This document shows positions 3,528 through 30,900 of a stretch of DNA of 30,965 bases, piece after piece (positions within the stretch are counted from its first letter, which is position 1; each line of letters begins with the position of its first letter). Location of the stretch: contig CALSCQ010003236.1 of NCBI GenBank assembly GCA_943704525.1, positions 1 to 30,965 of the forward strand. Direction: 5' to 3'. The notes under the pieces are model-generated. The model searched no databases and was not told the origin of the DNA. It was given only the letters and a program-made list of their open reading frames with translations. Position numbers and translations under genes: made by a program. Origin of the DNA: Pigoraptor vietnamica (lineage: Eukaryota > Opisthokonta > Filasterea).

Positions 3528-6500
3528 ATGAGTGGTGAAGCGCCCATGGAGGTGGCCTCGGCGCCTCGCTCTGCGTCTCCGACACCGTCCAAGTCGCACG
3601 GTCGGAGAGTGGCGCACGAGGGCAGCGTCGACGACGGCGGTCCCCGTCGCATGTCGTTTGTGATGGAGGGCGGACAGAACAGCGAGAGGCGGCCCTCCGT
3701 CACGATGGCCGACGCATCGCCAGGCAGTTCGCCCAGCGGAGAGTGTGCGCCGGGCACGCGCACGTCCGCCGAATGGGGCGACGCAAGCCGACTGGTCAAC
3801 TTCTTTCAGCACCAGACCGAGAGCCTTTCTCACCTCATCGCTCCAATCGAGGAGCGCCCGGGCGGCGAGCGTCGGGACTCGCAGTCGTCGGCAGATTCCG
3901 CACCGAGCCCGAGCCCGCCCATTGCCGGCTCCCTCGTCGACTTGCGCACGACGCCCCGCATTCGCGCGAAGCCCGAGCCGCAGGAATGGCACGGGGGCAA
4001 CTTGGCGACGAGCCCTCCGGCGGGCTACGCGAACATGCCCCTCGGCTTCAAGGGCGGCGCGTACTACACGTGGCACCTCTCTGCGCCGGAACCCTACGAT
4101 CCGCGCGGGGGGGACCCTGCTGCCGCCGGCGTGCAGCGACCGAGGACGACGAGCGAGTCATCCGCCGAGGAGCCCGGCATTCGCCCGCCCGGCGGCATGA
4201 CCGGCGTCGGAAGCTATCCGCCGCGTCCGTACGAGGGCTATGGCGCGCACCCCATGGACCCCTCACGGCAGTTCTACTCGTACGCGCCGGTGTGGGGAGT
4301 CGTGGGCCACGACGAGAGCGGGGCGCCCCTTCATGCGCCCGTGCGATGGCCGGAGAGCTCGAGCTACTTTCCGGCGCCGCCGTCGATGGACTTTCCGCTC
4401 CGAAAGACGTCGAGCGAGCCGAACATGTTGGGGAAGCCCGGCCACGGGCACTCGTCGCAGACGCACGCTCACGGTCACACGCACCGCGGGGCGTCGAAGC
4501 AGCTCAAGACGATGAGCGGACGCGATGCACACGAGCCATACGCGCGCACACGGCCACGGCAGGTGTCGGGTGAGTGTGCCTGGGGATTGCCTCTCCTCAA
4601 CTGGCAGCCGCGTTTCTGTGGTGGCTTCCGCTTCGGAGAGTGTTTTTCCGGTGCTCTCTTACACGTGTCGTTTGCGGTGACAGCGCTACTCACACGCGTT
4701 ACTCACCGCGGTCCTTCAGCAGCCGCCGCCGACCTCATGCCCGTGGGCTTCCCCGGCGGCCTTGGTCTCGCTGTGAGCCAGCCGACAACGCCGCGCAGCG
4801 CACCCACAACGCCTCGCTACGGCCAAATGCGCCCTCTCGACGACCCGCACTTTCGCCACGGCCACGGGGACGACGCCGCGCTGTGGACGTCGCCGTCGCT
4901 CCCGAACCTGAGGTGCGTTGGGAGCGTCGAATTCTCGTCTGATTTTTACCTTATCCCTATTATTCCCTTTACTTACATGTCGTCTATCTATCTATCTGTC
5001 TCTCTCTCTCTCTCTGCAGCACATCCCCGGGCAACTCGATGGGTGTGCTCAGCGCAGGGCCGGAGCAGACGGGCATCGTCTACGACAGCGTCGTTCTCCT
5101 CCACAAGTGCCCGTGTCCGAACGCGAGCGAAGTGCACGGAGAAAGCCCCGAGCGCCTGCAGAGGTCGGTCGCATCGTCTGCGCCGTCATTTGCCTGTTGC
5201 GTCTCTCGTCGTTTTATGTGGGCTGCACGTCCGTTAAGTGTGACTAGTGTTATGCACAGTGTTATGCTCACATTGTCAGTAGTATTTTCCCGTTCATTAT
5301 CTCATGTCCTCACTCTCCTCTGTTACGACAGCGCGTACACGTACCTTAACGACAGGGGCGTCCTGCAGCGGTGCCATCGCGTCAAGGCGCGAAAGGCCAC
5401 ACTCAAGGAGCTGTATGCGATCCACTCTGAGGCGCACACCGTCACATACGGCACGCCGACGCAGCACCAGGTGGGCTTTAGTCGTGCGGTTGCTTGCGTG
5501 CGCTTCGCTGTGCTTCTTTTATGTGCAAGTTGTGTTCACCCACTTTCTAACTCGTCTGTCCGTTTCGCAACACTAGAATGCGACCAAGTTTGCGGAAAAG
5601 CGTCCGAGCGGCGCCAAAGCCGTCGCCGGTGCGCCCCCTCTCACGCGCCTCCCATGCGGCGGAAAGGGCATTGCGACGGGCCTCGATGCGCAGACGTACT
5701 GGAGCGAGGACCACAGCGCACTTGCCGTGCGAACGGCCGCGGGAAGCGTCGTGGAGCTCGCCACAAAAGTGGCGCGAGGGGAACTGCGCAACGGGTTGGC
5801 CCTTGTGCGGCCGCCCGGTCACCACGCCGAGCGCGGCCGTGCGATTGGCGGGTGTTACGTGAACAACGTGGCGGTGGCGGCCAAGGCGCTGCGCAAGTCG
5901 GCAGGGGTGAATCGCGTGATGGTGGTCGACTGGGACCTCTTCCACGGGAACGGCACGCAGGAGGCATTCTACAAGGACCCCTCGGTGCTGTTCGTGTCGC
6001 TGCATCGGAGCGACGGCGCGTCGGTGTTCCCGTTCACGGGGCGCATTTCGGAGACGGGCCTTGGCGGCGGCGAAGGGTACACCGTCAACATTCCCTGGTC
6101 AACGGGAGGTGCGTGCATGTGCCGATTATCCGTGACGTGTGTGCGTGTCCTCATTGCATTGCGTTGTGAGTGATTCTGACGCTATTATTCCCCCTCTGCT
6201 CTGTTCGCAGCGGACGCTGTTGTTGGGGACGCCGAGTACCTTGCGGCGTTCCGTGCGGTGGTCATGCCCCTCGCGCGGCAGTTCTCTCCCGAAATCGTTC
6301 TCGTCTCGGCCGGGTTTGGCGCCGCGGACGGCCCCGCGCTTGGCGGCTACACCGTAACTCCCGAGGGTGCGTTTCCAGTCTCTGTTATTTGTGGCACTCG
6401 CGACGTTCTTGTCAACACAACGTCGTGCATGCGCTGATCGCCCGTCCTTTCCCACCGCAGCCTTCGCCCACATGACCCGGATGTTGATGCGCGCGTGTGA

Positions 6501-7282: not shown

Positions 7283-10200
7283 TCAGTGCCAGCCAGCAAG
7301 CAGGAGCTCAACGACCTTCGCCTGCTGCGCGCTCTCAGCCGCAACGGCCGCGACGTCCGTGAGTGGGGCGGTGCTCTCGAGCAGATTGGGCCCAAACACA
7401 GTGCCGAGGTTCGCAGGTCCCATGGCATTGGAACTGACGCGCGAGACAATCCTGCGTTGCGTGCGGCGTTGTCGTCAGCACAGCAGGCACCTGATCATTC
7501 GAGGACTACAGACAGCCGGTGACAGAGGGGCACAGAAGAGAAATGACAGCCGCGCAACTCACTTGCGCCAGTGCGCGACCAGTGCGGCGATTGTCTCCAC
7601 ATGCGGCGGGGGAAGCGAGCGCGCAATGGACACCACTTCGCGAGCAGCCACCTCAGTGGCCGCCGCACTGCCAATGGCAGCCGCTGCGGTGCAAGGGCAT
7701 GTCACGTGAGAGGCGCAGCACACTCGCCCTCTGCACCCTAGGAAAGGCAGGGTAAGCTCACACTCACCCGCGGCAGCCATCGCACGACGGCCGGCGTCGC
7801 CGGGAATCGCACGCGCGGACAGTTCTCGCAGAAACATCTTCAGTACGCCGGCGATCACGTGGACGTCCGCCGTGCCCACGTCCGCCCGTCCAGCCTCAAA
7901 GTCCGCGCGCAGCCTGTCCACCTGCGCGTGTCATGAGTGGTGTGTAAGTGCAAAACAGGCGAGAGAGAGAGAGAGAGGAACAGAGAGCCATGAAGCATAT
8001 CTTCACGGCAAACCGGCAATTCGTCTCTCAGCCACATGCCTTCGACTTTGCTCCCGAGAGGCGGTAGATGCCCTTCTCGTCGAGACCGCGCGCCTCCACT
8101 GCCGCAATGCACTCTTCGACGAGCGACGGCACATTGCGACCCGAGTGCTCGGCGAGCTCTGCAAGACTGCCTCCAAACAGGCGCACGTTCTTTGGGCGCT
8201 TCTTTGGCCGTCCGTCGGCCTTCTTCGTCTTTGATCCCTCCCCGGCGGCGTCTTCGCGCACGCGCTTGCGTGCGGGAGAGAGGGCGAATGGCGAAGAAGG
8301 CGCCGATGCGCGCGTGTTGGGGCATGAAGGGAAGAGCTCGTCTGCGCAGTGCGCGTGCACGATCACGTCACACCCTGCGACACAGACGCGAGGAACGGGT
8401 TGTTAGAGAATATAACAAGTAGGACGGTCGGCGAACGGTATGAGTTAGTCAGGAGATAGGGTTGTCTGTCGAAGGAAGACAACAGATGCCGCAACACTCC
8501 GTGACAAGAGGGGAGGGACGCACCGGCACACTTGAGGCCCTTCTTCATCATCGCGATCGCGCGCTTGCACACATGGCAGTGCGGACGCTTCACAAACGTC
8601 TCTTCGCACAGCGCGTGGCGCACTGGCACGGCTCCGACGGTCGCTGCACCCCCTGCGACTGGGACGGGCGGCATGGGTGGGACATCGACAACCACAGCCT
8701 CGTCAGCCGGCCACGCGGATACGTGGGCCGCCGGCACAGGCATCGCTCGCTCGAGGGCAAACGATGGCGCCACTTGCTCGGCGGCGCTTTCCACAATCGC
8801 CGCAATGTGTATGTCATAGCTCTCCGCCGTGAGCTCCGTCGAGCGGTCCGAGGGCGCAATGCTCCCTGTGGACGTCCTCGACCTCGCCTTCCGCACCGGT
8901 TGCACACGACGCCGCACCGGTTCGGTGGCCTTGGACGGCGCTCCCTCCGGTCCTCCCGCAGCACTCTTATTGGCATGGGTCGCACTCGATGCGAACGACG
9001 CGACGGAGGCGTTCCTCTGCGCAAGACCGCCCGACCGGTCGCTGTGCATCGATAGCGTGTTGCGCGCCTTCGCAATGTCCTTGAGCTGCGGAACACCGCG
9101 CTGCGCCCCAACAATGTTGGCCTTCCGCAGGCGCTCGAGGATGGGGTCCACGGGCGCCGGTGCATCGTCGGCAGGAGGCGCTGAGGGAAGTGCTGTAGGG
9201 GCTGGAGGAGGGGCGGCGGCAACGGCGCTCGCAGCAGACTCGAGCGACGACCAGCCTTCGATGTGCGGGCGCATCGTCGCGCCAGAATCGTCCGTCAGCG
9301 TCAGCATAGGGACCGCCGCGCGATCGGCCTCGCGTGATGGGTTGGGCTTCGCGGCGGGATTTCGCCTCTCATCGACAACGGCGGGCACATGCACCGCCGG
9401 TGGGTCGACGGCCGCGGCCGCGGCAACGGGCGCCACTGCTTTGGCGGCGGACTCTGGAGCTATTTTCTCCCGTAGCTTCGCATTCAGCGCACTCCGCACC
9501 ATTTCGCGCGCCCGCACGATGTCGTCGTCGTCCTCCTCTGCAACAGCGATGACAACACCGGCTTCGGCGACCTTTGGAGTGTCCGTGGGCTGCTTTTTCT
9601 CCATCGCCCGCTTTTCGTCGATGGCACCGTTTGCTTGGGGCTTTGCGGGCGCGGCTGTCTGTACGAGGGCCGGCGGTGGCGGCGGCGGCGGTGGAGGAGG
9701 AGCGGCGCAGATCTCTTCCTTCGTCGGAGTGGACGTCGCACACACATTCGGTACAAACGCCTCCATGAGCCACGACTCGACGCTCCCGTCGCTCTCTCTG
9801 CGCGACGGAGACGCCGAGGGCTGCGGGGACGGACGGCGCCTCTTCAGCGGCATGAGATGCTCGGTTGCGTGCGGGGATTCGCCTCCAAACGAGTCGGCCA
9901 CAGCGCGTTTGGGCCGCCGCAGCACTGCGTCGTCCCTCTCCTCACCGCTGTCGGTCGACAGGCGTGACGGTGACTGTTGCGTGGTGAAGGCGCGCGTGTC
10001 GCGATCCTCGAGGGCCTCGTTCAGCCGCCGGCGCAGCTGGGCCACCTGCGCGTCGTGTGCGGCATCGCGCGCCTCCAGCCTTGCCTCCCACTGCGCATTC
10101 AGTGCGTCTCTCTGCCGCGCAAGGACCTTCGCACCCTCCGCGTCACTTCCCGCGGTTTGGAGCACACGGATGGTCTCCCGCTGTTCGTCGCAGAGTTCGG

Positions 10201-18085: not shown

Positions 18086-19327
18086 ATGGGCACCGTCCTT
18101 TGCACGCAGCGAGGGCCTGTGGCCGCAAAGGGCAGCGTATCTGTCGCCGACGGCCGCGCATTCACCCGCACGTTTCGAGACCACACGCCAGATGGAGCGC
18201 CGTCGCATCTTATGTCGGGGAGCGGCACGTCTGTATCACGGAGTGAGAGCGCGTCGATAGACGGCGGGCGGCTTGTGAGCTCGAGCGATGTGCGGATAGA
18301 GTCGCTCGACAAGGACGCTCCCTCAGACGACGAGGGATATTTGTCCGAGGCCTCGGTGTCGCAGCGCGCCCGCACGATGCCGCAAAGTCGCTCACCGCAG
18401 CAGCAGGAGTCGGGCATCCGCCGCATGCCCCTCTCGCAGGAGGAGGTCGACTTTTCCGCTTCGGACAGCGCCCTGCGCCGCCGGTCGTGGCCGCTTGTGA
18501 GCGCTGCCCCGGAGCCGTCGAGTCGCTCCGGACTGGACGCCAAGGTGCTCGCGGACTTTGAAAGCGAGCTTGTGCGCGTTGTCACGCCGTGCCTCGTGCG
18601 CAAAGGCGAGGTGTTCGTGCAGCCGGGCGGCGACGATGTGGCCTCGGAGATGTACCTCATCAAGCACGGCACGGCGTTCGTCTGCTCGCCCGACGGCCTA
18701 ATCGTTTATGCCACGCTCGAGCCAGGCGCATTTTTCGGAGAACACGGCGTCATTCTTCCGATTGTATTTTCGTACCCCGAGGGCGCGGTTGTGCACGCGG
18801 GGTCGCACATGTTCCTGCACGTCGTGCAGCGAGCGAAGCTGGAGGAGCTCTTTGCAAAGTACCCCCCGATTGGCGATCGCTTTCACGAGGTCATGGACGC
18901 CCGACGGAAGGCGCCCGCTTCGTCTGCGCCGGCAGGAATGAAGCGCTCCAACCGCCGCCGCTGGTCGATCGCGGCGACGCGGAGCTCTCGGCCCGTGCTG
19001 TACTCGATTCGCGAGGTCGTGCACGAGACGGTGCAAGAGGATATCTACCGAAACCGGAGGGAGCGCTTCAGCCTGCCCGCGCTGGGCGTTACGCTCGCAG
19101 AGTCGCAACAGCTGGAGGCGGCACAGCGGGATAAGGACGAACCGGCGCCTCGTCAACGAAGCCGCAGCGTGCAGTACGACAGCTTGCCGTCGATTGCGAC
19201 GCCCGCGGCGGGTCTCATCGACCGGTCGAGCGTACAGCGCAATCCGGAGGCATTTTTGAAAAGTTTTACGGGGGAGGCGACTATCTACAACGCGTCTCTG
19301 CCGTCGCTCTCCAGGAAGTCGTCGTAG
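18086..19327 (+). CDS. Protein with degenerate cyclic-nucleotide-binding domain
   Basis: A single exon of 413 codons. The N-terminus MGTVLCTQ fits the N-myristoylation pattern (Gly2, small residue at 6), and Cys6 could be palmitoylated, which would place the protein at a membrane. Residues 20-145 are Ser-rich and disordered. Residues about 151-270 form a cNMP-binding-like beta-roll: KGEVFVQPGG, MYLIKHGTAFVCSPDG, LEPGAFFGEHG, then an LEELFAKYP helix, as in PKA regulatory subunits or CAP-type proteins. The phosphate-binding cassette has F-G-E (217-219), but where the cassette arginine is expected (PRAA in PKA) it reads PEGA, and the loop is about four residues longer. Canonical cAMP/cGMP binding is therefore doubtful. 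The C-terminal 140 residues are basic and Ser-rich with R-x-x-S sites. Being intronless among intron-rich neighbours, it may be a retrocopy or simply a compact gene. Confidence 0.8.
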   Translation: MGTVLCTQRGPVAAKGSVSVADGRAFTRTFRDHTPDGAPSHLMSGSGTSVSRSESASIDGGRLVSSSDVRIESLDKDAPSDDEGYLSEASVSQRARTMPQSRSPQQQESGIRRMPLSQEEVDFSASDSALRRRSWPLVSAAPEPSSRSGLDAKVLADFESELVRVVTPCLVRKGEVFVQPGGDDVASEMYLIKHGTAFVCSPDGLIVYATLEPGAFFGEHGVILPIVFSYPEGAVVHAGSHMFLHVVQRAKLEELFAKYPPIGDRFHEVMDARRKAPASSAPAGMKRSNRRRWSIAATRSSRPVLYSIREVVHETVQEDIYRNRRERFSLPALGVTLAESQQLEAAQRDKDEPAPRQRSRSVQYDSLPSIATPAAGLIDRSSVQRNPEAFLKSFTGEATIYNASLPSLSRKSS

Positions 19328-20164: not shown

Positions 20165-23130
20165 ATGCCTCCGGGCATGGGGGGGACCGCCTCCCCCGAA
20201 CCCGAGTCGCGCAATGCACCAGCGCCGGTCGCTCTGCTGCGCGAGCTGACGGTCCAGAGAGCGGGCTTGCCCGGGGCGCCCATCCCCGCGACGCCGCGCG
20301 TGCTCGGACGGCCTCTGCCCGACAGCGGTTTCCGCCACGTGCACGCGTACGACAGCGGCGTGGATCATGTGGTCTTGGGCCCGCTCGACTGGATCGCCTA
20401 CATTGTGAAGGGGCGACTTGTCAAGTGCCGGCTCGACGTCGGCATCTACGACGGGCTCTTTCAGACGGCGCCCCCGGCGTCGCCCGGTGCTGCGGGCCCG
20501 TCGGGTGTTGGAGCCGCACGGCGCGTGTCGGGAGACGAGGCGCCGCAGTCCCCTCTACCTCCCGCGCCGTTCCTCGGTGAGCGCAGTTGGGATGGGCCGT
20601 CCGGGGGCTTCGTCAAGCTGGCAGCGATGGCGTCCGAGGTCGTCGCAGTGGGTGCGGACGGCGCACTCTACCGTTGGAAGTGGGAATCGGAGGACGAAAG
20701 TGGCCGGGGACTGCACCCGCTGTGCGAGGCGCTCGGGGTGTGGGTCCCGGGCGGTGCCGCGGGCGAGCGCGTCGCGGACGTCTCGGCGTGCACAGTGCGT
20801 TGCACTGTCCTCTCTACGACAGGCAAGTGCGCGACGTTCTACGATGAGGCGGTGCGCTCGCTGGCGTCGGGCGAGCTTGCCTCGCTCGGCGTACTTGAGC
20901 GCTTGGAGCATGGCTTTGGGTTTTCGCCGCTGCGGGGCCCGCACCACCAGGGAACGCCGGCCAAGCCCACAGCGGATCCCTTTCGCGCGGACCCGGCCGT
21001 TTCCGTGTCGACCTCCGTGACGGCGACCTTTGCCGTGACGCGGAGCGGGCGGATGTTCCGGTGGGGCTTCTTTGGGGCGTGCGCGCCGGTGGAGGCCGCG
21101 GGGGACGATAAGAAGAAGGCGAAGGCGGCCGATAAGGACAAGGACGCAGACAAGGGCAAGGGGAGCAAGGACGCGGCGGGGCCGTCGTCGCCCCCCGCGA
21201 AGGCACTGCCGAAGCGCGGCGACCGCGTGTTCAACCGCAAGCTGCTCGACGACCTCGCCCAGAACGTGCTTGCTCTGTGCGCCGCACTCGCGCCTACGGG
21301 CGACGCCGAGCGCCTGCCTGGCGACTACGCCGTCGGCCGCCTGGAGGAGAAGGTACTACAGGGAAAGCCCGCGGCACAGCGGGAAATTGTTGTGCTTGAC
21401 TCTCCCCTCGCGCCGTCGAAGCACGGCGAGTTCCGTGCCGTCGCCGCGCCCGGGCAGCTGATCCCCCTCGCTGTGCCTAGTGGCAGCCTTCCGCGCCCAC
21501 TCGGCGTGATTGTGGGTATCGACGGCGCGAATGCAATTGTGCGCCTCGATGCGGAGAAGACGGCTGACGGGACGCCCACCGAGGACGAATATCGAGTGCT
21601 GGAGCTGTCGTCGCTCGCTGCGTGCGACGCGTCGGCATCGGGCGTCTCTGCGGACGCTCTTGGGGACGTCGTTCGCCGCTTTGGACAGTGTGTCACGGAA
21701 CCCGCGGGCATGGAAATCGACGACGGCATTGCGGCGGTGTGCGTCACGTGCTCGTTCCCCGACCTGCACGTGCTCGCTCGCGCGAAGGCGGCCGCCCAGG
21801 GCGACTCTGCCGCGGGCGACGCGGCTGTCGCGCGTACCAACGACCTCTTCTACTGCCGGATGTCTCACGATGAATGGAAGAAAGACGCCGAGTCGAAGGG
21901 CGTGCAGCCCGCGACGCAGCAGCCCGACAGCGGCTTCCAGTGCCTCGTGTGCGCGGAGAAATTTGCGAGCAGGAACCGCCTCTTTGCGCACCTCAGGGCG
22001 CGCGGCCACGAAGTCGGCACCACGCAGAAGGCGGGTCGCTTCTCGGGCCTCGGCATTGCACCGCCGCCCGCTGCCGTGGCGTCGTTCCGCGTGCTCGCGG
22101 ATCCACGCGAGAAGGGCGCCGCGCTGCTGGTCGACAGCGCCAGCTACGTGTATCCCCTCTCGCCCGCCGGCATGAACACGCCCGAGACGGTCTTCACGCT
22201 GCGCGGCGTGCCGGACGACTGCAAGCCGGACTCCAAGGCCGTCGAGTCGCTCGCTGCGCCGCTGTCTTCGCCGCGCGTTACGTTTTTGACGACGGGCACT
22301 TCTGTGCGCGGGCCCTATAAGCTGCGGGTCTACCGGATGCTCGTGGGGTACCTTGGCGACGATCAGCGCGCCATGTCGACGCCGGATGCGGCGATTGCGG
22401 CGCTCATTGCGCGCGGCGTCCTCCCCCTGGGTCGCAACGTGCTGCACGTGTGCACTGCCGCCGAGCAGCTGACCGCTGTCCGCGCGGCCGTCGGCGAACC
22501 GCGTTTTGAAGCGATGCTCCGCGAACGCGACTGGCGCGGGGACACACCGCTGTCTCTGGCGGTTAAGGAGCAGCGGCTGGGCGTGGCCTCGCATCTTCTG
22601 TTTGTCCTGCCCAAGGGACCTGACGCAACCCGCGCGGGCGCCAAGGACGCGTCCGCCGTCGCCGATCCTTTCGGCGTGTGCGAGGCCTTCATTCGCCTCG
22701 TCGGCAAGCACGGGGACGGCGGCGAGAGTGCGGCGCCGTCCACACAACCCTCTGCCGGAGCAGCGTCGGGTGCGACGGGGGCTGCCGCGCAAGGGGACGA
22801 TGCGCGCGGGGCCTCCGAGTTTGCTGTTCGCGACTGGGCCGCGGCGGCCGACCAGCTCTCTGTGCTGGGTGCGGCGAAGGTGTCGGCAGACAAGGCGGTG
22901 CTCGTCCCGAGCTCGCGCAACAAAGTGGGGGCCGTGTGGCGCCGCTCGCGAGTGCAGGTCGCCGCGGGTTTTGAGACGACGTTCACCTTTGCGATCCAGA
23001 ACGCCGCGTTTCAGCCGGCGGATGGGTTTGCGTTTGTCATTCAGAACGTGGGGTGAGTGTTTGTGGATGTGCGCTGCACTCGTGTGTGTGTGTATGTGTG
23101 TGTGTGTGTGTGTCTGTGTGTGTCTGTGTG

Positions 23131-23178
<48 letters not shown>

Positions 23179-26100
23179 CGTGTGCGTGTGTGTGTAAACT
23201 TGTTCGCACACGCGTGGGTGACCCTGTGCTGATTACGGCCATGCGCGCAGGTCCCAGCGGCTGGGCGAGGGCGCGCAGCAGTTGGGCTACGGCGGCATCC
23301 CCATGAGCCTCGCCATCGAATTTGACGTGTATGCGAACGACGACCTCGAAGACCCCCTGCTGCCCCACGTGAGCGTGCAGACGCGGTGGGAGGCAGACAA
23401 CCAGGCGCACCACCGTTACTCGCTCGGGTGCTGCGAGAACCCGCCGCCGATCACGGAGGGGAACACGCACGCGTGCACCATCAAGTACTCGCCTGCGCGG
23501 AACAACATTGAAATTTACATCGACAGCACGTCCATCCTCTCGGTCGAGCTCGGTGCGTGTGCTGCTTGCTGTTAGTTACATTTCTACCCCTTTGTTTGTT
23601 GTCGATAAGAGTGTCCGCCGTGTTCGCTGACACGCGATGCTTTGTGAGCAGGGCCCAACAAATCGCTGCGCAACATCTGCGATGCGAACGGCGAGGCCTT
23701 TGTCGGCTTCACGGCGGCAACGAGCCAGCTCGCGGCGGTCTTCCACGTCGGCGAATGGTCGTACAAAGGTGCGATTTCGTCGCTTGTGTTTGGTGCCGCT
23801 GTGTGCCAGCTCGGACCGTCACTAACATCCGGACTTTTGTACACCAACAGCGGATGTCCGCCCTGAGAAGCCCGTGCTCCGCGCGCTATTGGACAAGGGC
23901 GCGTTTGCTGAGCTCGAGGCGATCGACTTTGCCACGCTGCCCCTAACGGCCGTCGCCACGATCGCGGACGGCGCGCAGGCGAACGTTCCCGGCACGCTCC
24001 TCGGGGCCATCCCTGCCGTGCGCGACTTCATGGCGTCGTCGTCGGCGTCGTCGCTCACGCTGGACTCTCTTGTTCCCGTGTCCGTGCTGAGCGAAGTGTT
24101 GGCGCTCGTTGCGCCGGGCAAGTCGGTGTCGGGCGTGCTTGCGGAGACGGCCGCGCAGAAGGGCCTGGAGGTGCCGTCGGTGGAGGGCCCGCTTCCGTTG
24201 GCGGCAATCTTCCGCCCGGAAGTCGCCGCGCGCGCTCTCTCGCGAATGTGGCAGGACGGGCTCCGCACGCGCATGATTGCGTGGATCGGCGCTGCGAGGC
24301 CTGAGCTGTTTGCTGCGTCGTCCCCCTCGCTCGGCCTTTCGCCCTTTCTCGAGTGCCTGCGCACGGGCCGGTACCACATGGCGGACTGCATCCTCAAGAG
24401 CGTCGCGCCCGCGCGGAGGGACCTCGCGGACACGCTTCTCGCCGCGCGCGACGCAGCGGGACAGACGGTGCTGCATGCGATTGCGGGACGGCCGGCCGCC
24501 GGCGCCGCTCCCACAGGGCAGGCTGCACAGGCGGCGGGGAAGGGCTCTGTCTTGCCTCCCGCACCGCCCAACGATGTCGAATTGGCGCGCATTCGCTCGC
24601 TTGTCGAGGACTTTTTTGTCGTGTGCGCTGCGTCGCGTCCGGAGATGTTGTGGGCGCGAGACTCACAGGTGGGCTGCCCGCACACTTTCTCACATGGTCA
24701 TGGCCGGTGACGTGTTTTTGTTTTCATCTCATCCGTTCCAATTCTCACACTTTCACTGCACCTCCTTTTTTTGTCCGCAGGGCAAGACGGCAGTGTCGTT
24801 GGCCGTGGCGAGCGGCAACTACACTGTCGCTGCCACCATTCTCTCGGCGGCTCTCAAACACCAGGCGGAGGCCGAGCGGCGCGCGCGGGAGGCGGTGGCA
24901 AGTGGTGTCGCCCCCTCGACGCCCGTGACGCCCATTCCCGCGCAATTTTGGGAGGAGATGCTGTGCAAGAGCGAGTACCCGGCGTTTGGGCCCACGGACG
25001 CGTCTGGATCGCCCGACAAGGTGCGCAGTGGTGGCGCGTGGGCTTGTGCTCAGTGGTGGCGCGTGGGCTTGTACGCAGTGGTCGCGTGGGCTTGTGGGCA
25101 GTGGTGGCGCGTGGGCTTGTGCGCAATGGTGGCGCATGGGCTTGTCCCGGTTGTTTGCGCTGTTCCTTTTGGTTTTCCATTTTTGGGGTTCTGCTCACGT
25201 GCCGACTCGTGCCATGCCATGCAGAGCAAGAAGACCGGCATTTGCCTCCTCCACCGCATCGTGGTCGAAGCGTCGCGCGGGCAGCACGGCCCTGCGAACT
25301 ACTGGAAGTCGCTTGCGCAGACAGAGACGATGCACGACGGCATTCCCCTGGTGAGAGTCGCAGTCGGCGTCCGCTGAGTGTGCGCCTACTGTCAGCCGAT
25401 TGTCCGCTTGCATGTGGGCAAACCCGAGAGCCGCCTTCACCTGCGCGCGCCATGCCACTGCTCTTGCGCTCACTGACCTCCGTCTCCTTCTGCCTCGCCC
25501 TTTCATAGGCACTCGCCCTCAACAATTGCACGTCGGTGATGAGCGGGCGGCAGTACCCCACGCAGCGCTACTTTACGTGCATCGACTGCCGCCCGCCCGT
25601 CGAAGGCGAGGTTATTCTTGCGGCGTGCGAGGCCTGCATCGCCGTGTGCCACCGTGGCCACAAGATCGGAAAGGAGCACTACGCGGGGTGCGTTTGCCCG
25701 CCACCTCAGTCGCTGCTTCTGTTGCGATTCCAAATGTCTCGTGCGCATGAAGGGCTCAGGCGCCTTTCTGGCGCAGTTGTACTGATTACCCCCCTCTCTT
25801 TTTCTCTTAACGCGCCACAGCTTTTTCTGCGATTGCGGCGCGGGCGAGCTCAAGGTCACGTGCTGCGTCAACAAGCTCTCGGACCTGATTGTGGGTGACA
25901 CGAAGCGGCACCTCGAGGGCCCCGTGCACGAGCAGAAGATTGAGCTCATCCGCGTGGCAGCCGAGTGCGCGGCCAGGCACGTCCCAGCTGCCCTCGCCGA
26001 CTTGAGCCGCGGTGTGACGCCGCTGGGCGCCGCGCTGTACGCAGGACGATACGCCGAGGCACACGCGCTGCTGTCGGTCGCCGTCCCTCTTGCCGCCGCC

Positions 26101-29100
26101 GACGCCGCAACGGGCGAGCACAGCCATGCCGCCGGGTGCTGCAACGGGACGCACGCGAACAGCTCGAAGAGCTCGCTGCGTCGTGCGGACAGTTTCGATG
26201 GCGGCCTGGACGGCGGGTGGGACAGCGGGGACGAAAAGAAGAAGGGCGCACAGGTCACCGTGCCCGAGGTCCCGCCTCGCGATGCCGAGAGCCTCTCGCT
26301 GTTTGTGCGCGCGTGCGCACGCCGGGCGGGCGAGTGTGCTTCGGAGGTGAGGCGTGCACTCGTGGCGTGTGACCCGCGGGGCAACACGGCGCTGCACTAC
26401 GCGGCCGTCATGCTGGCCCGCCGTGACAAGGAGGCGCGCGCAATCCACGGCCTGCTGCCGTACGCAGGCGGCAAAGAGGTGGCGACCGACGACGCCGTGG
26501 CGGGGACGGGGGCGCAGAGGGGTCCCCTCTCCCTGCTGCCGCTGCTTTCGTCCGTCGCCAGGATGGCGATGATGCCGAATGCAACGCAGGAAATGCCGCT
26601 GACGCTGTACGTGCGCGGCCTGTCGAGGCTGCAGGGCCCGCCGCCTCCACCGTCGGCGGCGGACGAAGATGCCCAGCAATCGGCGCAGCGGGGCGACGAG
26701 CACGACGAGGCGCTGGCGCGGCGGCACGCGTCCCTCTTGAACCCCGAACTGCTGTCGTGGGAGTCTGTGCGAGCGGTGCTGCTGGTCGGGACGGACGACG
26801 TCCCGCGCGGCGTGGAGTGCCCGACAGATCCCTGGGACCACGACCGCATCGCGCGCCTCGACTCGTTTGTGGCAACATTGCTCTCGCTGCGCCCTCCCCT
26901 CTCGCTCGTGTGCTCCAAGGTTCTCCGGGTGCTCGCATCGGCGTGTGCGGCGGAGCGTGCGCAGGCCGGAGGCTCGTCCCGCCCGCCAGCAGGTGCCGGG
27001 TGGACGGCCGCGGACATTGTGCGTCGCTTTGTGCGGTCGTGCGCGCGCGTGTTTGTGCTGCGGTGCCTGAGCCCCGAGTCTGCCGCCGACGGCATCGTGC
27101 CCGACCCGCGCCAGGCCGCGGTCATAGCCGCGTACCGGCAGAACGCATCGCTGGTGTGGCTGACATTCCCCGACACGGCCATTGTGGCCCTCGCGGAGGC
27201 CGCCGCGGCGCTCTTTGCCCCCGTGGCGACGGGGACGGTCGAGGCCTTTCCCGGCTTTGACTCGTCGGGCAACGATCCCCTCGAGGCGCGGCGGTGGGCC
27301 GGCAGCAACCACGCGGCCACGTGGGTGCGCCCTCCGGACGCAGCGGGCGCCTCATCGACCGAGGGCGGTGCGTCGTCTGCGTCGGGCGGCGCTGGCGCTG
27401 AAGGCGGCGACGCGCGCAGGCCGTCGCAGCGGCGCGCGTTCCAGCCCAAGGACTACGATTGGGCCGTGCCATCGACGGACTCGGACCGCCACGCGGCCGC
27501 CGACATTGCGCGCATGTTTGGGCGCGTCGTCCGCGAGATTGCGGACCTCGCGTGCATGCTGCAGGCGCGCGACGGAGGCCACGGCGCGGCGGTGGAGGTG
27601 CTGCGCGGGACGCTGGCCGGGCCCACGCGCTGGCTGTCGGTGGCGATGGACGCGCTCGAGTCGCGGCTGCGCTTTGGAGGGCGGCTGCCCATGCCGGGGC
27701 CCATTCCGTCGATGTCCGCGTATGTGCTGTCGCTGCTGCGCGGGCGGTCGCGCGAGCACGGCGACACCAGGCCGTCCGTGTCCGTGGGCAGGTGAGTTTG
27801 TCTTGGCCTGCCTGCCGATTGTGTTTGGGTTTGCCCACTATCTGCGGTCCCGAGCTTGCGCTCACTGTATTTTCCCGTCGCAGCATGGGTCACGTGGGCT
27901 TTGTGCTGGACGCGTTTCTCTACTGCATGCGGCTGCACCCACAGCTGCTGTGCGAGGAGAAGGACGAGGAGACGGAGGCTGCCAGGGCTGCTGCTTCGTC
28001 TGCGGCCCTTCTGACGCCCACCCGCGCGACATCTGACGGCCAGAAGGGCAAGGGAAAGGAGCGCCTGGACGCGTCCCCGCGGCCGTTCCTCGCGCACCCG
28101 CAGCACCAGCACGGGACGCCGCTGTCGAAGCACGACTCGTTCTTCCGCAAGTCGCACTCGATCTCCCCATACCTCTCGAGCGGCGACGACATTGACATGC
28201 CCATTTATGAGGCGCCCCTGCGCCAGGCGTTGCCCCTCGCGCTCAACCCGACCCTGCTCAGCGAAGGCGCCGTCGGCGTACCGCTGCTGCAGTCCGGCAA
28301 CACGCCGCCGTCGGAGGCGCCCGCAGACGTGCGCTTGTTTGCGGATAGCGTGCTTGGGGCGCACGCGGGGGGCACGCGCGGGGCGGCGGCCACATGGGGA
28401 CCGCTCGCCGACAAGGGCTACGAGGACGTGACCGAGCGCTGGTGGCTGGCGCTGCGGCTGATGGGCCGGTCGCTCTTCGGGGCCATGTGTCTCGAGCGCG
28501 ACTCGTTTGTGGTCAGCGCAGTCGACTTTGACACGAAGGCGGCACACTTTCGCACGCAGATGGACACCCTGCGCCGGAGGGCCTCGAACGAGGTCGACCT
28601 CTCGCGCATCGTCCGGCCCGACATTGTGCGGACGTCCTTCAAGCAGCTCGACGCCCATTTTACCCGCCTCGCCCGCTCGCAGAGCTCGGACGGCGGGGGG
28701 GGTGCGTGGGGCGCGGGCTCTGTCGTCGTACGCTTCATGGACGAGCCCGGCGGCGGAAGCGGTGTCACGCGCGGCTGGTTCACGGCGCTGGCGGAGGCGC
28801 TGACGAGCACGGGGCGACTGGGACCCGAGCCCGCCGGTGGGGCTGCAGCCCCGGCGGCAAGCGGTCCTGGACCCACGCCGCCCCCTCCCCCGCCGGTCAT
28901 GGGCGGGGGCGGGGGAGCGGGCGGCGCCGGGCACGCTGCCCACGAGCTCGATGCATTCTCTTGGCCCGCGCCGCTGCTCTTTGAGCCCGGACCGGCTGGG
29001 TTCTTCGCGCCGCGGTACCACCCGTGCATGGCGCGCTTTGGCGGGAAGGAAGGGGGGAAGGACAAGGAAGTGTCGGAGGAGGCGCGGCGACTGCGGACGC

Positions 29101-30228
29101 TGTACGTGTGCATCGGGCGCTTCATAGGGCTGGCGCTGTCCGAGCAGCTGATCCTTCCGCTGGCGCTGTCGCGGCCGGTCGTCAAGTTTCTCATGGGCCG
29201 CCGGCTGTTTTCGCACGACCTCGCGTTCTACTCGCCAACCAAGTACGAGAGCCTCCGCCACCTGCTCGTCATGTCGCCCGAGGAGCTTGCGGGCTGCAAC
29301 CTCACGTTCGTGGCGCCGCGCTCTGCGGAGGAAGGCGGCGGCGAAGTGGGCCTTCTGGATGGGGGCGGCGGGGAGGACGTGCCGGTCACCGCGGACAACG
29401 TGCACGAGTACGTCAAGCGGCACGCGCGCTTCATCATGGTCGACAACGTGCTGCCCGCACTCGAGGCGCTGCGCGACGGCTTCCAGCAGGTCGGTGTTTT
29501 TTTTTATTATTATTCTTTTTTTTTTTTTTTGGTTTCGATTTTTCGCACTTTGTCGGGCATGGTGCCGTGTTGCTGAGTTTTTCCTTTCTGCGGCTGCAGA
29601 TCATTCCCGCGTCTGTGCTGTCGTACATCACGCCGGAGGAGTTTCATCTGCTGCTGAACGGGTGCGGCTGGGAGGTCGACGTCAACAAGCTCAAGCAGTG
29701 CACGCAGTTTACGAAGTAAGAGACGCTGCATTTGTGTGGGACGCATTGTGTGCGCTTCTGCTCGCTTACACCAACTCATTTTTGCCGCAGCGACAACACA
29801 TCAGCGGAAGACACCGCGGCCATGGAGGGGTGGTTCTGGGAGATTATGAAGGTGCGCTTGGGCGCCACTGTGCCTTTTTTTGTTGTTGCTTGTTCCGACT
29901 GCTTTTGTTTGTGGCTTGTAAGGCATCACCGACTCCCGCTTTACCCGCGCAGGAGTTTGAGGGCGAGGAGCGCAACAGGTTCCTCTACTTTACGACGGGC
30001 AGCACGCGCATGGCAGCCGACGCGTCGCGCTTCTCGCTCAAAGTCCACGTCGTGCCGTGCACCAATACGAACAGCAGCCGTACGTGCGGCCGGGGCCGCT
30101 GCATTCATCTTCCCACGGCGGCGGCGTGCTTTATGCGGCTGAATGTTCCCGTCTATGCCGCCAAGGACGTCTTCAAGGACAAGCTCCTCTACGCCATCAA
30201 CAACTGCGTCACGTACCAGCTCCACTGA
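20165..30228 (+). CDS. UBR5/Hyd-type HECT E3 ubiquitin ligase with inserted L-type lectin and C2H2 finger
   Basis: Exons 20165-23052, 23251-23552, 23652-23768, 23851-24668, 24781-25020, 25225-25350, 25509-25687, 25821-27791, 27884-29489, 29600-29715, 29791-29851, 29953-30228; about 2,899 residues (human UBR5 about 2,800). The N-terminal RCC1-like propeller region (about 40-750) includes ADGALYRWKW, matching KGELYQWKW of human UBR5. A C2H2 finger lies at 593-615. An ankyrin-like stretch NVLHVCTA matches NILHACV. The L-type lectin spans about 897-1102. GKTAVSLAVASGNYTVAATI matches the segment before the UBR box. The UBR box (about 1503-1575) has FTCIDC, ACEACIAVCHRGH and FFCDCGAGE. FFRKSHS matches FFRRSDS. 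The HECT domain ends with LPTAAACF; the catalytic cysteine codon is 30127-30129. The MLLE domain that sits before the human C-lobe is absent, and no UBA domain is visible. UBR boxes bind N-degrons and HECT domains pass ubiquitin through the cysteine. The lectin suggests glycan-directed substrates (inference). Confidence 0.93.
21938..22010 (+). other. C2H2 zinc finger segment of the UBR5-type ligase
   Basis: C593-x2-C596-x12-H609-x5-H615 within FQCLVCAEKF...LRARGH, a U1/JAZ-like spacing usual for RNA- or protein-binding fingers. I know of no such finger at this place in animal UBR5. Confidence 0.75.
22853..23768 (+). other. L-type (legume) lectin domain segment of the UBR5-type ligase
   Basis: It covers the end of exon 1 and exons 2-3. 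Landmarks: GFETTFTFAIQN, ADGFAFVIQN (D953), LGYGGIP, and the metal loop IEFDVYAND...EDPLLPH. Residues E986, D988, Y990, N992, D997 and H1002 have the same identity and spacing as ConA E8, D10, Y12, N14, D19 and H24. The domain closes with AFVGFTAAT, as L-type lectins do. Confidence 0.85.
23082..23195 (+). repeat. GT microsatellite in UBR5 intron 1
   Basis: About 114 bases of nearly pure GT with a few interruptions (A, C), inside the 23053-23250 intron. This alternating purine-pyrimidine DNA could adopt Z-form. Confidence 0.95.
25021..25143 (+). repeat. Minisatellite, five 23-25 nt units starting at a splice donor
   Basis: Units start at 25021, 25046, 25071, 25094 and 25119. The consensus begins GTGCGCAGTGGTGGCGCG. 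The first unit begins exactly at the donor of UBR5 intron 5, so each copy repeats a GTGCGCAG-like donor. Confidence 0.9.
25021..25224 (+). other. UBR5 intron 5, 204 nt, stop-free and a multiple of three
   Basis: Donor AAG|GTGCGC, acceptor CATGCAG. Read through in frame there is no stop over 68 codons (Trp/Ala/Gly-rich), so retention would give an insertion just before the UBR box. An intron is favoured because neighbouring segments align without it. Confidence 0.6.
29497..29530 (+). repeat. T-rich tract in UBR5 intron 9
   Basis: T runs interrupted by ATTATTATTC, between the donor at 29490 and the acceptor at 29597-29599. Confidence 0.85.
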
Positions 30229-30397: not shown

Positions 30398-30407
30398 TTA
30401 ATTTGCT

Positions 30408-30480
30408 TGGAGGTGGGGGGTATCGATCCCCCTGCCTCTCGCATGCTAAGCGAGCGCTCTACCATCTGAGCTACACCCCC
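30408..30480 (-). tRNA. tRNA-Ala (anticodon AGC)
   Basis: A full cloverleaf of 73 nt without intron. The acceptor GGGGGTG pairs with CACCTCC and includes the G3-U70 wobble that identifies tRNA-Ala; the discriminator is A73. The D-stem is GCTC/GAGC, the anticodon stem CTCGC/GCGAG with loop TTAGCAT, and the T-stem GGGGG/CCCCC. The T-loop reads ATCGATA, with A at 54 instead of the usual T. Internal B box GGATCGATACC fits the permissive GWTCRANNC pattern. It lies 180 bases from the UBR5 stop codon, in convergent orientation. Confidence 0.95.
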
Positions 30481-30900
30481 ACTGTCGATTCCTTTTTAGG
30501 AAATTGACGTTTCAATCGTTTTTTTTATGATTATCGTTACGTCCGCACAATGCTGAATCTCGCACGTGACCATGATAGCCCAAATTTTGGCGCGCATAAA
30601 TCCACAAATTTTCGATGGAATTCGTGCGCAAATAATTTGCATTTCCATACAACTTTCATACATAAATAACGGGTGAATTTGCAGCACACTACACACACAC
30701 ACAAATTTGAAAAAATAATAATAATAATTCCCATTTCATACTTATTTTATAGCCCGTAATTAATCCGCCCGCCACACCACGTGCAGCACACACAATCCAC
30801 ATCCGGGGTGAATTCCGGGTAAACGCGCGTCTTTTTTTCGCCTCCTTTTTTTTTTTTTAGTTTTGGCTATTTAGTGTGCGTCTTTTGCCGTCGCGGCAAA
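30481..30900. other. Intergenic region after the tRNA, probable promoter/5' UTR of the next gene
   Basis: AT-rich, with an ATA-repeat run near 30713-30727. A long T tract ends in TTTAG at 30860, which resembles a 3' splice acceptor and could end a 5' UTR intron. No coding region seen. Confidence 0.5.

Follow-up and report, generated by a model that had tools for sequence, protein, structure and literature searches.

Structure of the locus

The 30,965 nucleotides of contig CALSCQ010003236.1 (assembly GCA_943704525.1, Pigoraptor vietnamica) analysed here, hereafter the window, hold on the forward strand a predicted gene for a UBR5-like HECT ubiquitin ligase, with a built-in lectin of the legume type (L-type) that follows the N-terminal part and precedes the UBR box. 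A first-pass annotation of the window had pointed out this arrangement, and on the predicted splicing we confirm the observation.

The gene runs from an ATG at 20165 to a stop at 30228, end points that were taken over from the first-pass annotation, and has a predicted product of 2899 amino acids (aa). The joins were placed by eye at frame-preserving GT-AG sites, and the GT-AG borders of 11 out of 11 introns are therefore given by construction. In this predicted model the 11 introns measure 75-204 base pairs with consistent phases, and the GC content of third codon positions (GC3) is 0.80-0.90 in the exons versus an intron GC of 0.38-0.63. A crude hydropathy scan found no signal-peptide-like stretch at the N-terminus of the predicted ligase.

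20165..30228, forward strand: whole coding region, 12 predicted exons (GT-AG joins selected in the sequence; phases and GC3 computed)
20165-23052, 23251-23552, 23652-23768, 23851-24668, 24781-25020, 25225-25350, 25509-25687, 25821-27791, 27884-29489, 29600-29715, 29791-29851 and 29953-30228, forward strand: the exons

The lectin domain

22811..23052, forward strand: L-type lectin, first part, in exon 1, with PADGFAF at 23015-23035 holding the ADG aspartate Asp953 (Pfam, sequence)
23251..23552, forward strand: L-type lectin, second part, in exon 2, with the metal loop at 23318-23368 (Pfam, concanavalin A alignment)
23652..23768, forward strand: L-type lectin, last part, in exon 3; the PF00139 match reaches exon 4, to aa 1107 (Pfam, gene model)

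The lectin comprises about aa 883-1107 and spans exons 1-3 plus the initial codons of exon 4. When spliced, it passes PF18483 with 85.4 bits and an expectation value (E) of 6.5e-24 (cut-off 78.3), by which a chance origin of the match is ruled out. It likewise passes PF00139 (57.7 bits, E=1.6e-15, cut-off 26.3) and, narrowly, PF03388 (28.8 bits, E=9.6e-7, cut-off 24). Unspliced, both parts stay below the PF18483 cut-off, with 35 bits (E=1.6e-7) for exon 2 and 26 bits (E=1.8e-4) for the end of exon 1. Against solved structures the best match was 7elv, a 'legume lectin' (E=3.7e-14), followed by 2fmd and concanavalin A (ConA).

The metal loop reads E986-F-D988-V-Y990-A-N992-D-D-L-E-D997-P-L-L-P-H1002, in which E986, D988, Y990, N992, D997 and H1002 have the spacing of E8, D10, Y12, N14, D19 and H24 of ConA (numbering as in the first-pass annotation). 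The loop aligns to ConA without gaps; as this match is split in two by the permutation of ConA, the short loop piece taken alone reaches just E=2.6, against E=4e-8 for the whole. For the metal-loop residues and the ADG aspartate, which is D953 in the window lectin, we assume the roles assigned in ConA, the aspartate presumably being a sugar contact beyond a mere fold residue. The predicted jelly-roll fold of the lectin follows from homology. Three claims of the first-pass annotation are thereby substantiated: an intact legume-lectin domain in the ligase (PF18483 and PF00139 above cut-off, matches to 7elv and ConA), a metal loop with ConA spacing at all six ligand positions, and the presence of the ADG aspartate.

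We also considered that this gene might encode the secretory lectin of the organism, which was ruled out, since separate matches to PF03388 (ERGIC-53/VIP36-type) sit elsewhere in the genome, on C1143 and C68. With the lectin exon as the only query, no relatives came up among bacterial and archaeal genome contigs and viral contigs, in a search mode that catches close relatives only, and this negative carries little weight.

The ligase domains

20558..20869, forward strand: RCC1-like segment, aa 132-235, similar to human UBR5 351-456 (E=3.7e-7, moderate)
25521..25866, forward strand: UBR-type zinc box, exons 7-8, aa 1504-1572, with 11 zinc-ligand positions from C1504 to C1571/1572 (sequence matches)
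28131..28166, forward strand: HDSFFRKSHSIS motif opposite UBR5 HPFFRRSDSMT (UBR5 alignment, score -0.2, alone not significant)
28428..30225, forward strand: HECT domain with extended N-lobe, codon of the catalytic Cys2867 at 30127-30129 (Pfam, UBR5 structure match)

The HECT domain is detected by Pfam with E=1.3e-57. Among solved structures, UBR5 is the best match to the last 686 aa, at 205 bits and E=2.2e-59 against 92 bits and E=2.6e-25 for HACE1, which comes second as a family; the catalytic cysteine lies inside the UBR5 alignment. The HPFFRRSDSMT motif of UBR5 falls within residues 2016-2076, which the available text of PMC10830417 terms the 'HECT display' segment.

At the other end of the protein, the RCC1-like comparison with UBR5 used the N-terminal 853 aa as query. 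WD40_RLD, the RCC1-like model of Pfam, matches aa 145-301 with 22 bits and E=1.1e-4 at a cut-off of 150; the similarity to UBR5 covers one segment of the putative propeller.

The UBR-type zinc box is real as judged by sequence matching. It finds UBR4 (E=1.3e-7) and FBXO11 (E=3e-7) among solved structures; UBR5's own UBR box is absent among the 14 structure matches. In its own genome it matches two boxes that score above the PF02207 cut-off, on C323 (E=3.6e-6) and C1294 (E=2.6e-4). PF02207 itself was reported for the window ligase neither by the protein Pfam scan nor at that locus by the genome search. The 11 zinc-ligand positions agree with those that a figure legend of PMC10830417 gives for UBR5, with spacing shifts of +4, -1 and +3 in three loops.

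Pfam gave no UBA match at E<=1 in aa 1-962, and the last 686 aa yielded HECT alone at that threshold, with no MLLE domain. We hence consider 'UBR5-like' safer than the 'UBR5-type' label used previously, which is fair for the HECT domain and its neighbourhood. The suggested alignment to UBR5 from the N-terminus to HECT holds likewise in part, being strong for HECT, moderate for RCC1 and generic for the UBR box. Profile searches with Lectin_legB, UBR and HECT, proposed together with it, placed lectin and HECT above cut-off and left PF02207 unreported.

Related genes in the genome

A profile search of the genome (32.5 Mb, 1395 contigs) gave 43 exon-level HECT matches, two of which are the window's own. 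The sample examined as larger stretches consisted of ten HECT loci plus a single lectin locus, with the remaining HECT contigs outside it. Seven of these ten loci (C651a, C651b, C822, C995, C218, C376 and C662) were treated as UBR5-like paralogues: in tblastn against the window C-terminus they reach E from 1e-28 to 3e-52, and the other three 2e-17 or weaker. The catalytic cysteine is kept in all eight aligned family members, and the FFxRxxS motif is found in every paralogue except C376. For C651a, the only paralogue compared in this way, the HECT domain is nearest to UBR5 (120 bits versus 80 for HACE1).

The lectin region was readable in six paralogues, as the C822 contig ends before it. The joined lectins of C651a and C651b both pass PF00139, and the second lectin part of C651a passes unspliced (26.5 bits). 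C651b shares all seven key positions, the six metal ligands and the ADG aspartate, with the window at 33% identity between the domains. C651a shares six of the seven, the exception being a tyrosine replaced by histidine, and the metal loop carries insertions of two residues in C651a and one in C651b. In a FastTree of the HECT domains (ten tips, weak outgroups) the window stands separate from the C651 copies; therefore the metal site is probably ancestral to the family and lost in some members.

Similarity in the other lectin regions is more scattered. The C662 region matches the window at 3e-6 and C651a at 4e-12 in blastp. C662, C218 and C995 as a group give a profile probability of 97% over 147 columns against the three lectins, a value that may rest mainly on C662, and for C995 taken singly the best E is 0.01 with the C651 lectins and 4 with the window. 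The lectin remnant of C376 was judged by eye with its exons unjoined. Outside the lectin, C651a, C651b and C662 are 18-22% identical to window exon 1 in their N-terminal parts, and their UBR-like clusters were recognised as motifs only. We also observed a TG-repeat-rich intron inside the lectin of the window (23053-23250), of C651a (L027 2776-3070) and of C218 (an intron of L031).

C651a and C651b are two genes in opposite orientation on contig C651. Their C-terminal halves (L027 5540-9402 versus L028 reverse) share 88.8% DNA identity over 3.9 kb, as a patchwork in which single 150-base blocks of the catalytic half range from 60% to 100%. Blastn at E<=1e-10 finds nothing in the lectin region, where the two proteins share 46% identity. 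It looks as if gene conversion holds the catalytic halves alike while the recognition halves diverge, as far as we can infer from these identities.

Nucleoporin-like FG/GLFG repeats were seen downstream of the lectin region in C651a (L027 3838-9378, forward strand), C822 (L029 402-5678, reverse strand) and C995 (L030 4053-9416, forward strand). These copies hold 14, 20 and 12 FG per 300 aa, respectively, against a maximum of 7 in 200 shuffles; it should be added that shuffles were scanned at steps of 50 and real sequences at steps of 10, a slight bias towards the real ones. The count is 8 for C218 (shuffle maximum 6), 6 for C651b (shuffle maximum 6) and 2 for both C662 and C376. PF13634 was above cut-off in two of the five paralogues scanned, C651a and C995. 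The window ligase has no FG excess, with 9 FG overall and at most 3 per 300 aa.

Linkage of the lectin and the ligase

The joins of the window gene were chosen on genomic sequence alone, at GT-AG sites that hold the frame open, and such a procedure might wrongly fuse a separate lectin gene with a separate ligase gene. We regard this artefact as very improbable. Exon 1 is one unspliced open frame that includes the RCC1-like segment as well as the initial third of the lectin, each below the Pfam cut-off there (PF18483 E=1.6e-4 for the lectin part). In C662 the frame stays open for 1784 codons, from the latter half of the degenerate lectin through to HECT. C651a and C651b both repeat the order of the window, with an N-terminal part, lectin, CHAAH zinc cluster and HECT. 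These three lines are independent of the window splicing and support the layout. Five of the six paralogues read (C651a, C651b, C662, C218 and C995) furthermore allow a phase 2 intron at the position corresponding to that in the window; the donor used in C651b (GTTGGT) is a weak one, picked to suit the downstream phase. The paralogues with the same layout strengthen both the predicted architecture and the predicted metal site. The claim that the lectin lies upstream of the UBR box and after an N-terminal, ankyrin-like part is accordingly upheld, with C651a and C651b alike and the ankyrin-like stretches weak.

Proposed function

We somewhat favour the interpretation that the gene encodes a cytosolic or nuclear UBR5-like HECT ligase that recruits glycosylated clients for ubiquitination by means of its built-in L-type lectin. 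The ligase would be located in the cytosol or nucleus, where the lectin, with calcium and manganese bound, would hold glycan-bearing clients, and the HECT domain of the same chain would ubiquitinate the client so held. Candidate clients might be N-glycoproteins that have leaked out of, or been dislocated from, the secretory pathway or damaged phagosomes, or else proteins with nucleocytoplasmic O-sugars. A GT41 (OGT/SPY-type) match in the genome scores 33.7 bits at a cut-off of 25, and its reading frames look OGT-like by eye. By analogy, the lectin would take on in cis the role that sugar-binding F-box proteins play in SCF ligases. The first-pass interpretation is supported in part: the architecture and the metal-site residues hold, and a reading of both glycans and N-degrons is a putative function. 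For the known systems, the literature describes ubiquitin transfer by the UBR5 HECT domain (PMC10830417), recognition of N-degrons by the UBR box of UBR5 (PMC11326040) and a cytosolic lectin that brings glycoproteins to the ligase in Fbs1-3 (PMC6389600).

A different explanation, which we hold to be possible though on the unlikely side, is that the lectin fold serves as a scaffold or protein-protein module with the metal site there for stability, and that the UBR box and other parts pick the substrates. In C662, C218 and C995, and in C376 by eye, a diverged domain at the same position lacks the metal ligands; as a ConA-like fold seems to persist there without them, it may be structural or protein-binding. 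This counts for the scaffold. It also weighs against glycan recruitment, as do several further points. Pfam found no RCC1-like match towards the N-terminus of the three paralogues scanned there (C651a, C651b and C662), and no UBR match towards the C-terminus of the five scanned there. AlphaFold2 gave a predicted local distance difference test score (pLDDT) of 48 for exon 2 of C651a alone, a partial domain, with four relatives, and of 35 for window exon 1 with five relatives, both too low for the models to be of use. Foldseek with the former model returned no match at E<=0.001, and two Dioclea lectins were among its 50 rows at E>1. Hydropathy reaches 1.75-1.78 in two 19-residue stretches of the ligase, so a membrane segment is possible. 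What speaks against a mere scaffold is that the window and the two C651 copies, which stand apart on the small HECT tree and are otherwise about a third identical in the domain, have all retained the ligands, and that the ADG aspartate, presumably the sugar contact, is present in each of them. As a sign of sugar binding, the conservation of ligands versus the rest of the domain is suggestive only, since core positions are generally more conserved anyway.

Glycan recruitment could also take a narrower form: the lectin would guide the ligase to phagosomes or lysosomes that are damaged, or to engulfed bacteria, and mark them for autophagy, as galectin-TRIM16 and SCF-Fbs3 do. The logic is known from cytosolic lectins and ligases (PMC6389600), but no phagosome pointer is present in the sequence, and we judge this version improbable. 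Further, we speculate, as something of a long shot, that glycan-reading HECT ligases form an expanded intracellular family in this genome. Its members would retain similar catalytic halves and differ in their lectin halves, each adapted as a reader of its own, and the GLFG-bearing copies would act at the nuclear pore on proteins O-glycosylated by GT41.

Relation to known systems

The window ligase has in common with human UBR5 (EDD/hyperplastic discs) the HECT domain, for which UBR5 is the closest match among solved structures, the RCC1-like segment, a UBR-type box, the FFR-S motif and the catalytic cysteine. The available sections of PMC10830417, PMC11134608 and PMC11326040 describe UBR5 as a propeller followed by a helical scaffold, together with UBA and MLLE domains, and make no mention of a lectin. 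The window ligase differs by its lectin and by the UBA and MLLE domains not found at E<=1. With L-type lectins (ConA, legume lectins, 7elv; PF00139/PF18483) it shares the sequence family, the ConA-spaced metal loop and the ADG aspartate; unlike them, its lectin is embedded in a ligase that has no signal-peptide-like N-terminus.

The sugar-reading ubiquitin ligases covered by the available part of a review (PMC6389600) are F-box adaptors that carry lectins of other kinds. Those sugar-recognising F-box proteins (Fbs1-3, and the plant F-box-Nictaba and F-box-jacalin) follow the same logic of a lectin module coupled to a ubiquitin ligase; they act as SCF adaptors, whereas the window ligase unites lectin and HECT domain in one chain. 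Pfam scans of the window ligase found no F-box, FBA or other F-box-linked lectin domain, and PF04300 had no match in a genome search that lacked a positive control. The same source describes, in the part available, cytosolic lectins tied to ubiquitin or autophagy in galectin-3/TRIM16 and galectin-8/NDP52. These galectin systems consist of separate proteins, whereas the window ligase is a single chain. Galectins are, besides, not L-type lectins.

In a search of the open-access literature that was partial and not exhaustive, we found no description of a legume lectin within any HECT or UBR5 protein, which agrees with the first-pass statement that no UBR5 of this architecture is known to have been described. 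For Zygnema, 26 combination architectures with Lectin_legB are reported, and HECT is not named as a partner in the accessible text (PMC11096116). Database entries with HECT and a legume lectin that have gone unnoticed may well exist. The individual parts are of known kinds and their combination appears to be new. If the glycan-recruiting function is true, a legume-type lectin and a HECT domain in one chain would be an independent solution to the sugar-reading ligase, by which the cell may directly mark sugar-bearing proteins for destruction. It would also suggest that UBR5-like ligases are able to gain glycan substrates, and would provide a testable case of cytosolic or nuclear glycan signals in a protist.

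Other features of the window and the genome

Three further stretches of the ligase were noted:

21935..22009, forward strand: lone C2H2-like zinc finger in the N-terminal part, aa 591-615, weak (Pfam E=0.024, below cut-off)
22427..22600, forward strand: ankyrin-like stretch upstream of the lectin, aa 755-812, weak (Pfam E=0.044, below cut-off)
23851..25350, forward strand: segment from the lectin to the UBR box, exons 4-6 (ankyrin-like stretches by eye, no Pfam match above cut-off)

An additional legume-lectin match was detected at C1333:15477-15989 (L037) in an unrelated frame, and tblastn found no match to the ligase parts of the window within the 9.9 kb examined at that locus. Elsewhere in the window we detected a histone deacetylase exon (5727-6170, forward strand; PF00850, E=4.4e-48), the start of a RhoGAP domain (8031-8366, reverse strand; PF00620, E=5e-6, above cut-off) and a cyclic-nucleotide-binding-like domain (18086-19324, forward strand; PF00027, E=7e-6, slightly below cut-off). 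Directly downstream of the ligase gene lies a tRNA-Ala (AGC) gene at 30407-30481 on the reverse strand.

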